Assembly: GCA_030345135.1 (NCBI GenBank)
Contig: CP128386.1
Location: 1,943,383 to 2,007,382 of the forward strand
DNA length: 64,000 nt
Source: Chitinophagaceae bacterium DXS
GTDB lineage: Bacteria > Bacteroidota > Bacteroidia > Chitinophagales > Chitinophagaceae
Direction of reading: 5' to 3'
A program made the translations under genes and the position numbers. This document shows positions 33,419-40,516 of this stretch, piece by piece (position 1 is the first letter of the stretch; the number at the start of each line of letters is the position of its first letter). Under the pieces are notes generated by a model that worked only from the letters and a program-made list of their open reading frames with translations, was not told the DNA's origin and searched no databases.

Positions 33419-33880
33419 TTACATGTTGTCAAAAGGCCTGCTCAAATAATGTTTCACTTCATCCCCCTTTTCAATTATTTCTACAAAACCCAATCTCTTG
33501 TATAATTCAAGTGCCCGCGTGTTCAATCGCAGCACTTCAAGATCAGTTCTCTTACGTTGAAGATCTGCGGACGCCAGATAATCTTTGATCATTGACGTAC
33601 CAATCGATTTACCCTGGTAATCCGGATGAATATAAAGGCTGCAGATAAAGATCTTTTCTTCGTCTTCCCTCACTTCGACCGTGCCTGCAGATTTATCCTC
33701 AACCTTAATAATAAAGGTATCTTCCGGACGATAGTTATCGCGATGAAATGCCAATTGAAATTCCTCATCCCATCCCCAGATTGTTTCTACGTAGTGCCTC
33801 AAGACCAGCTTTTTCAACTGATAAAAAAACTGACTGTCTTCCTTTGTCGCCCTTTGTAATATATAGTTCTTCAATTGCAA
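33419..33880 (-). CDS. GNAT-family N-acetyltransferase between trpB and trpA
   Basis: The protein has about 153 residues; the start is TTG (33880, or 33874) because no ATG is in frame nearby. GNAT features are IFICSLYIHPDYQGKSIGTSMIKDYLASAD (motif A, Q-x-x-x-I-G) and LEVLRLNTRALELYKRLGFVEIIEKGD (motif B). The N-terminal part resembles RimI-like enzymes that prefer small amines or protein N-termini. Substrate unknown. It is in the trp transcript, 27 bases after trpB. Confidence 0.82.
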   Translation of the reverse strand: MQLKNYILQRATKEDSQFFYQLKKLVLRHYVETIWGWDEEFQLAFHRDNYRPEDTFIIKVEDKSAGTVEVREDEEKIFICSLYIHPDYQGKSIGTSMIKDYLASADLQRKRTDLEVLRLNTRALELYKRLGFVEIIEKGDEVKHYLSRPFDNM

Positions 33881-35190: not shown

Positions 35191-35682
35191 CTAAGAAATG
35201 ATGAGTTGAAGGAATTTCAGATCAAGCCATCGGTCAAACTTATATCCCACTTCTTTAAAATGGGCCACTTCAACAAAACCGAATTTTTTATGCAGTGAAA
35301 TGCTGATATCATTGGTAGCATCTATGCCTGACACAATGCTATGTAAGCCGAGTTGCTTTGCCGAATCGATCAATGGTTGCATGAGCAACGTTGCAATGCC
35401 TTTACCACGCTGTCCCTGTTTAACATATACTGAATTCTCCACGCAGTACTTGTAGGCGGCCCAGGCTCTGAACGGACCAATAGAACTAAAGCCACAAATG
35501 ATTCTATCCTCTTCGGCTACAAATACAGGAAAGCCCTGTTGTTGCTTGGTATCGAACCATTGCTTTCTCATTTCAAGCGTGTGTGGTTCGTAATCATATA
35601 CTGCAGTGGTATTTACAATTGCATCATTGTAAATCTCCAGTATCTGTGGAAGATCGCTTATAGTTGCTTCCCTTACTATCAT
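35191..35682 (-). CDS. GNAT acetyltransferase, phosphinothricin-acetyltransferase-like
   Basis: The protein has 163 residues. It starts MIVREATISDLPQILEIYNDAIVNTTAVYDYEP, a pattern typical of the PAT/YncA branch of GNAT, with motif A NSVYVKQGQRGKGIATLLMQPLID and GIDATNDISISLHKKFGF. Members acetylate small amines such as methionine sulfoximine, phosphinothricin or related glutamine-synthetase inhibitors. The ATG overlaps the trpF stop by four bases (ATGA), so it is translationally coupled to tryptophan synthesis. Confidence 0.88.
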   Translation of the reverse strand: MIVREATISDLPQILEIYNDAIVNTTAVYDYEPHTLEMRKQWFDTKQQQGFPVFVAEEDRIICGFSSIGPFRAWAAYKYCVENSVYVKQGQRGKGIATLLMQPLIDSAKQLGLHSIVSGIDATNDISISLHKKFGFVEVAHFKEVGYKFDRWLDLKFLQLIIS

Positions 35683-38883: not shown

Positions 38884-40305
38884 TTAGATGGATTCAGCAA
38901 GTTTTACGGCTTTCTTAAGAGCGCCAAGCTTGTTGTTTACTTCCTGCAATTCGCTTTCCGGCTTTGAAGCAGCCACTACGCCAGCTCCTGCCTGATAATG
39001 CAACGTATTTTGTTTGCTGAGGAATGTGCGGATCATGATTGCATGATTGCAGCTTCCATCAAATCCTATAAAGCCGATTCCTCCGCCATAATAGCTGCGG
39101 GCAGTGGGTTCGTAAGCATCAATCAGCGACATTGCTTTAAACTTAGGTGCGCCACTTAAAGTACCGGCAGGAAATGTTTTTGCAATCAGTTCAAAAGGAT
39201 TGCTATCAGGACGCACTTTGCCCACTACTTCACTTACCAGGTGTATCACGTGGCTGTAGTAATGAACCTGCTTATAGTGTGTAACCTTAACATCGTCACA
39301 CAAACGGCTGAGATCATTGCGGGCAAGATCGACCAGCATCACATGTTCCGCATTTTCTTTTGCGTCGCTTAATAATAGTGCAGCTAATTCTCTGTCTTTC
39401 TCAGCATCTCCTGTTCTTCTGAACGTACCTGCAATAGGATGCACGATGGCGTTGCCATCTTTGATAATTAATTGAGATTCGGGGCTAGAACCAATCAGCT
39501 TATAGTCGCCGTAGTCAAAGTAAAACAGGTATGGGGAAGGGTTAACACTGCGCAGTGCGCGGTATACATTGAATTCATCGCCTAAAAATGGCTGCTGAAA
39601 TCTTCTGCTTAATACTATTTGAAAAACATCTCCTCTCAGGCAGCTTTTTATGCCTTTTTCAACCATCTCTTTGTAACCTTCATCTGTAATGTTGGAGGCT
39701 TCTTCATCCTTTATTGTAAAAGGATAATTGGGAACATCTTTGCTTTTTATCAACGATTCAACAGCATCAATATCACTTTCCAGGCCAGGAATTACATTTT
39801 CGCAGAGAAACATTTCATTTCTGAAATGATTGATAGCAATTACATACTGGTACAAACGGTATCGCATCAACGGTATTTCCGGTGCGCCTTTTTCTTTGTC
39901 AGACGACTTTAGGCGAATGGTTTCGAAAAACTGCACGGCATCAAATGTTGTATATCCAAACATGCCCTGGGCTAGTTTTACAGCTCTTTCTTCTGATGGA
40001 GTAACATCAAACCGGTTCATGAATTCCCACAAAAGACATGGTATATCGCTTGCCTTTTCTATTGGTTGTTTTTCAGGTTTTTGCAGCGGAAGCTTGAACT
40101 CAATAGAAGAATAATCAATAATTTCTGCACCTGCAATGGCATTGATGCCGATGTAGGAATAACTGTTTTCCGCAGCACGGCTATCCGCACTTTCCAATAA
40201 AATCGTGTCTCTGAAACGATCGCGCAAGCGTAAGTAAATACCCACTGGCGTGTAAATGTCAGAGAGCATTTGTTTGAATTTCGTTGTAACCGGTATTCTT
40301 TTCAT
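38884..40305 (-). CDS. trpE: Anthranilate synthase component I
   Basis: The protein has 473 residues. The N-terminal LLES (36-39) followed by a serine about ten residues later matches the tryptophan feedback-inhibition site. The chorismate-binding domain is intact: GDVFQIVLSRRF, IGSSPESQLI, PIAGTFRRTGDAEKD, DLARNDLSRLC, FPAGTLSGAPK and GGGIGFIGFDG. It is the first structural gene of the trp operon and lies 109 bases after the leader-peptide stop and 42 bases after the attenuator T-run, so both allosteric and attenuation control are visible. Confidence 0.98.
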   Translation of the reverse strand: MKRIPVTTKFKQMLSDIYTPVGIYLRLRDRFRDTILLESADSRAAENSYSYIGINAIAGAEIIDYSSIEFKLPLQKPEKQPIEKASDIPCLLWEFMNRFDVTPSEERAVKLAQGMFGYTTFDAVQFFETIRLKSSDKEKGAPEIPLMRYRLYQYVIAINHFRNEMFLCENVIPGLESDIDAVESLIKSKDVPNYPFTIKDEEASNITDEGYKEMVEKGIKSCLRGDVFQIVLSRRFQQPFLGDEFNVYRALRSVNPSPYLFYFDYGDYKLIGSSPESQLIIKDGNAIVHPIAGTFRRTGDAEKDRELAALLLSDAKENAEHVMLVDLARNDLSRLCDDVKVTHYKQVHYYSHVIHLVSEVVGKVRPDSNPFELIAKTFPAGTLSGAPKFKAMSLIDAYEPTARSYYGGGIGFIGFDGSCNHAIMIRTFLSKQNTLHYQAGAGVVAASKPESELQEVNNKLGALKKAVKLAESI

Positions 40306-40347: not shown

Positions 40348-40378
40348 AAAAAAAAAGCCCCGACTAATAAGTCGAGGC
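40348..40378 (-). terminator. trp attenuator terminator
   Basis: On the minus strand GCCTCGACT (40370-40378) pairs with AGTCGGGGC (40357-40365) through a 4-base loop TATT, with one T-G pair. Nine T follow (40348-40356). It lies between the leader peptide and trpE. An identical AGTCGGGGC occurs inside the leader peptide's last codons (40421-40429) and can compete for the same GCCTCGACT arm. Confidence 0.9.
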
Positions 40379-40414
40379 GTAATTATTTAAAATTAAATAG
40401 TACTGGCAATGCCA

Positions 40415-40477
40415 CTACAAGCCCCGACTGAGGTTTGTGTGCCACCACCAATGATTATTTAAGATTTGTTTTTCCAT
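40415..40477 (-). CDS. trpL: trp leader peptide with three consecutive Trp codons
   Basis: The frame from ATG 40477 to TAG 40415 encodes 20 residues: MEKQILNNH, then WWW, then HTNLSRGL. Three adjacent TGG codons (40442-40450) form the stall site. The codons for SRG (AGT CGG GGC, 40421-40429) are exactly the sequence AGTCGGGGC that also forms the 3' arm of the terminator. The stop follows one codon later. Thus a ribosome reaching the stop covers this copy, leaving the terminator free; a ribosome stalled at Trp leaves it exposed to pair with the terminator's 5' arm. It is too short for usual gene finding. Confidence 0.9.
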   Translation of the reverse strand: MEKQILNNHWWWHTNLSRGL

Positions 40478-40484
40478 TGCTGTG

Positions 40485-40516
40485 CGAATATGACACAGAA
40501 AATTTAATTGAACAAA
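40485..40516 (-). promoter_or_regulatory. Weak candidate trp promoter
   Basis: On the minus strand TTTG (40513-40516) precedes TATTCG (40485-40490) by 22 bases, a degenerate fit to the Bacteroidota consensus. Transcription from it would start only a few bases before the leader ATG, so a leaderless or very short-leader mRNA would result. A different promoter further upstream is possible. Confidence 0.25.

Follow-up and report, generated by a model that had tools for sequence, protein, structure and literature searches.

A conserved, probably classical ribosome-mediated attenuator of the trp operon in Chitinophagaceae

Main finding and proposed mechanism

In our study, the element upstream of trpE in the window (the whole stretch of 64,000 nucleotides of Chitinophagaceae bacterium DXS that was analysed) was found to be, very probably, a classical ribosome-mediated transcription attenuator of the trp operon. 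Its anatomy is conserved in relatives, its leader and the terminator 5′ arm fit each other, and its spacing fits the footprint of a ribosome. A putative, conserved tandem-Trp leader ORF, a I:II hairpin holding the regulatory codons, and a position directly before the trp genes were present, as was a II:III antiterminator exclusive with the III:IV terminator, the column covariation of II:III being weak. The attenuator is well conserved and classical; it is new to the RNA library for Chitinophagaceae and of a kind already known.

A ribosome readout of three Trp codons probably decides the transcription of the trp genes. RNA polymerase would start just upstream of the leader ATG, and we infer that a ribosome would translate the 20-codon leader and respond to Trp as follows. 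When Trp-tRNA is short, the ribosome would stall at codons 10–12; its downstream edge, about 12 nt beyond the A site, would end right before the copy AGUCGGGGC, and the 1:2 hairpin would be broken. The freed copy would pair with the newly made terminator 5′ arm and transcription would proceed into trpE. When Trp is plentiful, the ribosome would reach the stop codon and cover the copy, and the terminator would form. With no ribosome, the copy would tend to be held by the 1:2 hairpin, and the terminator would form as well. The element is compact, and its states can be tested directly.

Organisation of the leader and the trp operon

The leader of 20 codons with three adjacent TGG codons, the terminator, and the exact nine-base copy of its 3′ arm, all reported by an earlier sequence-only reading, were confirmed (Table 1). 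The terminator was a nine-pair hairpin (GCCTCGACT/TATT/AGTCGGGGC, 40378–40357, minus strand) followed by T9 to 40348. trpE was followed by trpG, trpD, trpC, trpF, trpB, and trpA, down to 32593 (trpEGDCFBA). The best model for TrpE was TIGR00564 with 404.5 bits, below the curated cut-off of 517.7, and the identity of the gene is predicted from this match plus the operon context. Two acetyltransferase (GNAT) genes were interspersed in the operon (35191–35682 and 33419–33880), and one of them was nearest to the ArsN1 family (123.7 bits against a cut-off of 210).

Table 1. Features of the trp leader region in the window
Feature	Position	Strand	Basis
TTTG, −33-like promoter element	40513..40516	−	seen in window and relatives, 20 nt ahead of the −7-like element
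CATATTCG, −7-like promoter element, variant of TAnnTTTG	40485..40492	−	ends 7 nt before leader ATG
Leader peptide ORF, MEKQILNNHWWWHTNLSRGL*	40477–40415	−	ATG to TAG, 20 sense codons; tandem-Trp leader in 82/84 family genomes
1:2 (anti-antiterminator) hairpin	40393..40462; core strands 40452–40443 and 40411–40402	−	MFE, consensus, pair counts, swap test
Three adjacent Trp codons (TGGTGGTGG; region I, within 5′ strand of 1:2 hairpin)	40450–40442	−	sequence; pair counts
CCTC, partner of the copy's GGGG inside the 1:2 hairpin	40430..40433	−	MFE; pair counts (columns 30–33 with 38–41)
Region II, copy of terminator 3′ arm (AGTCGGGGC), leader codons 17–19	40429–40421	−	sequence; repeat, shuffle, and column counts
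Region III, terminator 5′ arm (GCCTCGACT)	40370..40378	−	sequence; folding; pair counts
Region IV, terminator 3′ arm (AGTCGGGGC)	40357..40365	−	sequence; folding; repeat and pair counts
T-run (T9), predicted termination zone	40348..40356	−	sequence
trpE, first structural gene	38884..40305	−	directly downstream of attenuator

The sequence AGTCGGGGC occurred twice in the 64-kb window, both times at this locus (40429–40421 and 40365–40357); 0.11 copies were expected in shuffled windows, and at least two copies were seen in 2 of 100 shuffles. A match of at least nine bases to the 3′ arm arose in 8 of 20000 shuffles of the window's leader segment. The 137-nt leader folded with −48.5 kcal/mol (z −6.87), and none of 200 shuffles folded as well.

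The element was present once in the window's genome. With our own covariance model, built from 43 leaders, it was the only match there (5.0e-18), and two further family members scored above 75 bits. A class tally with the same model (120 of 295 genomes at E ≤ 0.001) was not counted as attenuators, the matches being mostly weak; those listed below the top three had 33–48 bits under a rough calibration.

Conservation in relatives

The best trpE matches among named records were from Chitinophagaceae, with 77% identity at most. The family sample comprised 117 Chitinophagaceae genomes, of which 85 contained a trpE match; the upstream region was examinable in 84, one genome (G058) being left out for a trpE match lacking the N-terminus. 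In 82 of these 84 genomes, trpE was preceded by a tandem-Trp leader ORF shorter than 40 codons, and 79 had a terminator by the T-run rule. The sequence-only reading had proposed a search in related genomes for such an ORF, with last codons that match the terminator 3′ arm and covary with it. The ORF was found, as was a fit of the leader to the 5′ arm; column-wise covariation of the copy was weak. WWW was present in 73 of the 84 genomes and a duplication of at least 5 nt in 89 of 138 leaders.

Over all 163 loci examined, which combine named loci (L032–L111) and partly overlapping genome-sample loci, a tandem-Trp leader was found in 155, WWW in 142, and a terminator in 149. One further locus (L098) lay too near a contig end and another (L001) repeated L002. 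As a control, WW occurred in 93 and WWW in 3 of 1600 dinucleotide-shuffled upstream regions. No terminator was found under the T-run rule in 6 of the 155 tandem-Trp loci. The tandem-Trp ORF was absent in 8 of the 163 loci; judged by eye, seven of these (some near-identical) had a single Trp and the same layout, and in one no such leader could be recognised. Cultured relatives such as Niastella soli (L057) and Paraflavitalea pollutisoli (L041) share the leader type of the window. The single-Trp leaders (GWH; L092, L096, L104, L105, L106, L109, and L154) kept the GGGG core and the terminator and lay just upstream of trpE.

The pair tests used 138 non-identical leaders, the window included, after the removal of 11 identical cores. 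Exact duplication was usually shorter in the relatives, with a median of five bases; it reached at least 9 nt in 11 of the 138 leaders, and the window's nine-base identity is at the long end of the range. In shuffled leaders, at least 9 nt were duplicated in 0 of 2760 and at least 5 nt in 351 of 2760. A group without the GGGG core was also observed (L103, L107, L108, L110, L111, L149, and L156), five of them from Chitinophaga records; in these leaders a 1:2 hairpin can form between UGGCAC and GUGCCA, and a long hairpin of the GGCCCGCTG/GGCTCGCTG type makes up the terminator.

The 1:2 hairpin

In the MFE fold of the window, the UGG codons paired with bases past the leader stop (40411–40402), and the GGGG of the copy paired with the CCUC immediately before it. 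The RNAalifold consensus of 43 leaders contained a hairpin of the same strands as the 1:2 hairpin of the window; these 43 rows were left from 52 candidates after 9 divergent ones were dropped by hand. Column counts were made on 59 rows, chosen by a leader regular expression plus GGGG or GAGG at a fixed place, and the window belonged to both sets. In the 59 leaders, 90.5% of the cells of the 1:2 hairpin were paired, with 41 double-change cells, and its covariation score was reached by 0 of 500 shuffles; two of the five measures failed to beat the shuffles (64/500 and 117/500). When the partner strand was slid along, pairing fell to 59.3% or less. In the swap test on the 138 leaders, own strands gave −15.69 against −13.86 kcal/mol for swapped ones (0 of 2000 permutations), and on 15 distant representatives the count was 0 of 5000.

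The 1:2 hairpin is real and corresponds to the classical I:II, and the system is thus a trp attenuator of the I:II / II:III / III:IV type. The likeness of the leader to the terminator 3′ arm is then expected, because II and IV both pair with III. The sequence-only reading had instead proposed a switch of two states, in which the copy and the 3′ arm alone compete for the 5′ arm, the ribosome masks the copy, and no 1:2 hairpin takes part. The copy is indeed exact over 9 nt, and a ribosome at the stop codon would cover it; this simpler switch is nevertheless very improbable, as the hairpin appears in the MFE fold and in the consensus, and column counts favour it over the copy pairing. In the folding model, moreover, the antiterminator exceeded P = 0.5 in 38 of 138 leaders with region I free, against 133 of 138 with region I covered by the ribosome. 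The idea of an attenuator form lacking the 1:2 hairpin is thereby removed.

Pairing of the leader copy with the terminator 5′ arm

That the leader copy and the 3′ arm compete for one 5′ arm, as the sequence-only reading had claimed, was borne out by the swap tests and the footprint model, column counts adding little. In the swap test of leader against 5′ arm on the 138 leaders, own pairs gave −13.75 against −11.75 kcal/mol for swapped pairs (0 of 2000 permutations). Because related sequences inflate this result, the test was repeated on 15 distant representatives with less than 70% identity, where 1 of 5000 permutations did as well. By columns, 82% of the cells of the antiterminator helix were paired in the 59 leaders of one register, the outer positions being often unpaired, and the covariation score was equalled by 51 of 500 shuffles, i.e., it was weak column by column. 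The core was nearly invariant, with one informative position (G-C 40, G-U 15, A-U 4). One reason for these poor counts is that the register of the copy varies from subclass to subclass, which the energy swap test takes into account. The terminator helix was 97.4% paired in the same 59 leaders and lay above all shuffles on every measure.

Relative to the leader ORF, the GGGG core occupied each of the three reading frames (66, 26, and 11 leaders; it was missing from 35 of the 138), and it overlapped or followed the stop codon in a few cases (L063, L084, and L086); therefore the RNA, and not merely the peptide tail, is selected. This bears on a further explanation, that the peptide WWWHTNSxRGL is what is conserved, acting either by nascent-chain arrest or in trans (as peptide or sRNA), and that the RNA pairing is secondary. 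WWWHTN(S/L) followed by RGL is common in relatives, and trans roles of a trp leader (peTrpL/rnTrpL of Sinorhizobium) have been reported (PMC7298713). Against it, the tail changes frame (RGL, SGVL, and KGL) while the core stays, and the GGGG of the three leaders named above lies at or past the stop codon, so that we consider this explanation slightly less probable still than the switch of two states; the leader may have an additional trans role besides attenuation. That a small ORF lies by chance next to an ordinary terminator of another transcript is next to negligible, for a single 9-nt repeat is weak by itself (twice in 2 of 100 shuffled windows), but leader, copy, and terminator are conserved in relatives, including the 82 of 84 family genomes, and the swap tests agree.

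Fit to the ribosome footprint

A ribosome covers up to 12 nt past the stop codon (PMC4833913). With such an edge and the ribosome placed on the last Trp codon, exactly the copy is left free in the model of the window. The leader segment that pairs with the 5′ arm begins 11–15 nt past the last Trp codon in 84 of the 138 leaders. With the 12-nt edge, a leader-bound 5′ arm was predicted at P > 0.5 in 133 leaders when the ribosome stalls at the last Trp, in none when it stands at the stop, and in 38 with no ribosome; in the window, the corresponding probabilities were 0.97, 0.00, and 0.43. When, more strictly, both P > 0.5 in the stalled state and P < 0.2 at the stop were required, 85 of the 138 leaders remained. 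With the edge set to 9 or 15 nt, the stalled figure was 133 or 110 and the at-stop figure 7 or 2. Without a ribosome, the 1:2 hairpin tends to hide the copy according to this folding model, and the value of 0.43 makes it partly protective in the window. Together with the swap tests, the footprint model in the 138 leaders points to the ribosome-controlled trp attenuation that the sequence-only reading had described.

At equilibrium and with the 3′ arm present, the terminator was favoured on average in every state (0.88 in the window even when Trp-stalled). Therefore, the antiterminator must form first and the decision would be kinetic; the attenuator of E. coli is likewise treated as kinetic (PMC1183508).

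Promoter and start of the leader mRNA

Using the Bacteroidota promoter consensus (PMC7366714), the strict motif was found in 116 of 135 leaders against 16.5 in shuffles, and the window itself was missed; the 135 are the 138 leaders minus three with too little upstream sequence. A motif widened after the window had been seen was found in 119 of the 135, and in 107 of these the −7-like element started 10–20 nt before the ATG, against 0.3 in shuffles. In other families, 20 of 56 leaders had the element near the ATG (0.2 in shuffles); of 19 other genes of the window, none did.

Counted from the start site, the −7 box spans −12 to −5 (PMC9723704), which gives the window a predicted 5′ UTR of about 3 nt, and the leader mRNA is possibly near-leaderless. 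Such short 5′ UTRs are rare in Bacteroidota: in F. psychrophilum 5.5% were reported as leaderless (PMC9723704), and about 3.7% of 5′ UTRs of B. thetaiotaomicron were shorter than 10 nt (PMC7366714).

Relation to known trp attenuators

The sequence-only reading had left it undecided whether this form has been described for Bacteroidota. trp leaders are already described there as Bacteroid-trp (RF01692), and the element of the window is without a match to that model. Bacteroid-trp was listed as a cis-regulatory candidate by Weinberg et al. (2010) (PMC2864571, Table 1); it was called E. coli-like and found in Flavobacterium psychrophilum (PMC6414381), a species in which clues to leader-peptide attenuation of amino-acid operons have also been reported (PMC9723704). 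The window was absent from the RF01692 matches up to E 10 (gathering 49 bits), and no match was found in the window's genome or in 20 other loci, 17 of them from its family. Under stricter filters, the model passed its cut-off in 27 of 296 genomes of a phylum sample, 25 of them in one family (f5), and, among the genomes listed, matched none of the 11 from the window's family; it also passed in the control genome Bacteroides ihuae. The phylum, the genes, an NNxWWW leader, a 1:2 hairpin with the UGG codons, and a terminator just downstream are shared by Bacteroid-trp and the window, the layout being compared by eye. A documented and little studied class of trp attenuator is extended to a family that the public RNA model missed. 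In the literature search, among the matches listed, no title or abstract opening dealt with a Chitinophagaceae trp attenuator or with two wirings, older trp work being thinly covered. RF00513 (Trp_leader) scored 22.5 bits in the window, below its gathering threshold of 41. For T-boxes, no Rfam match was found in the window, where two tRNAs alone reached gathering.

With the trp attenuator of E. coli, as described in PMC1183508, the window shares a tandem-Trp leader ORF, the helices I:II, II:III, and III:IV, and a terminator before the first structural gene; in E. coli, II and IV likewise compete for III (PMC1183508). The window differs in having three Trp codons, whereas E. coli has two, and in the location of region II within the last leader codons. 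Its promoter abuts the ATG, and its genome is without a TrpR match. The TrpR family (PF01371) gave no match in the window's genome or in the 11 further genomes of its family that were searched; matches came from 2 of 19 genomes, one over the cut-off, both in other families of the order. With no member of this repressor family in the genome, the TrpR family being the one searched, the trp operon may be controlled at the level of transcription mainly by attenuation.

Attenuation without transcriptional repression is shared with the trpLE(G) attenuator (rnTrpL/peTrpL) of Sinorhizobium meliloti, whose trp leader mRNA starts at the ATG (PMC7298713); that bacterium belongs to a different phylum and is likened to the window by description, and the leaderlessness of the window is predicted from the promoter motif. 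In the his attenuator, which precedes different genes, a local hairpin blocks the antiterminator and keeps basal read-through low (PMC1183508); by analogy, the CCUC:GGGG pairing inside the 1:2 hairpin of the window might act like this extra hairpin.

Antiterminator pairing in other families

Outside the family, 61 loci were hand-picked from 227 matching genomes (21 given as loci and 40 more; several Flavobacteriaceae-like ones were skipped). A tandem-Trp ORF preceded trpE in 57 of the 61, of which one (L234) is probably due to chance, so that the Rfam model covers only part of the class. The family f5, which carries RF01692, is probably Flavobacteriaceae, because RF01692 was reported from Flavobacterium.

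The leaders of f5 appear to use the terminator loop together with the beginning of the 3′ arm as their partner, whereas the partner in the window's family is the 5′ arm. Among 17 leaders of f5, the 5′ arm was not matched (mean z +0.56), and the loop plus 3′ arm was matched (mean z −2.20) and preferred in 16 of the 17. The 5′ arm was preferred in 126 of 138 leaders of the window's family, 5 of 5 in f3, 6 of 6 in f4, and 6 of 7 in f8. This apex pairing was put to the swap test in 24 leaders, of which 23 belong to f5 and one (L170) to f11; own pairs gave −9.45 against −8.48 for swapped ones (0 of 5000), and pairing with the 5′ arm was unsupported in the same leaders (2125 of 5000). In most leaders of a set made up of L170 and 29 f5 loci (L166–L169, L171–L177, L190, L191, L193, L197–L202, L205, L206, L208, L211, L217, L220, L221, L223, and L230), the last leader bases including the stop codon, typically GTCGTGA, are complementary to TCACGAC in the terminator loop and the first part of the 3′ arm, and not to the 5′ arm.

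These sequences are consistent with a shared WWW leader, often on a near-leaderless mRNA, that is wired in two ways in Bacteroidota, a reading to which we give an even chance. In Chitinophagaceae and some other families, a copy of the 3′ arm would capture the 5′ arm; in f5, the leader end GUCGUGA, stop codon included, would capture UCACGAC, made up of the loop and the first part of the 3′ arm, and block the hairpin from its apex, the wiring having changed under unchanged sensing codons. Two cases speak against a simple picture of two wirings: f2, from the window's own order, preferred the 3′ side in 5 of 5 leaders, the scores being weak (mean z −0.09 and −0.97), and L183 of f4, which lies under an RF01692 match, preferred the 5′ arm. 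The comparison suggests a sensing part that was kept throughout the phylum and an antiterminator wiring that changed, and the evolution of the switch thus becomes testable. Five further f4 loci (L185–L189) contained leaders of the form WWW(L/F)SNSSSGL with TCGTCGGGTCTG, whose pairing to the terminator 5′ arm is loose; these leaders resemble the SSGVL subclass of the window's family.
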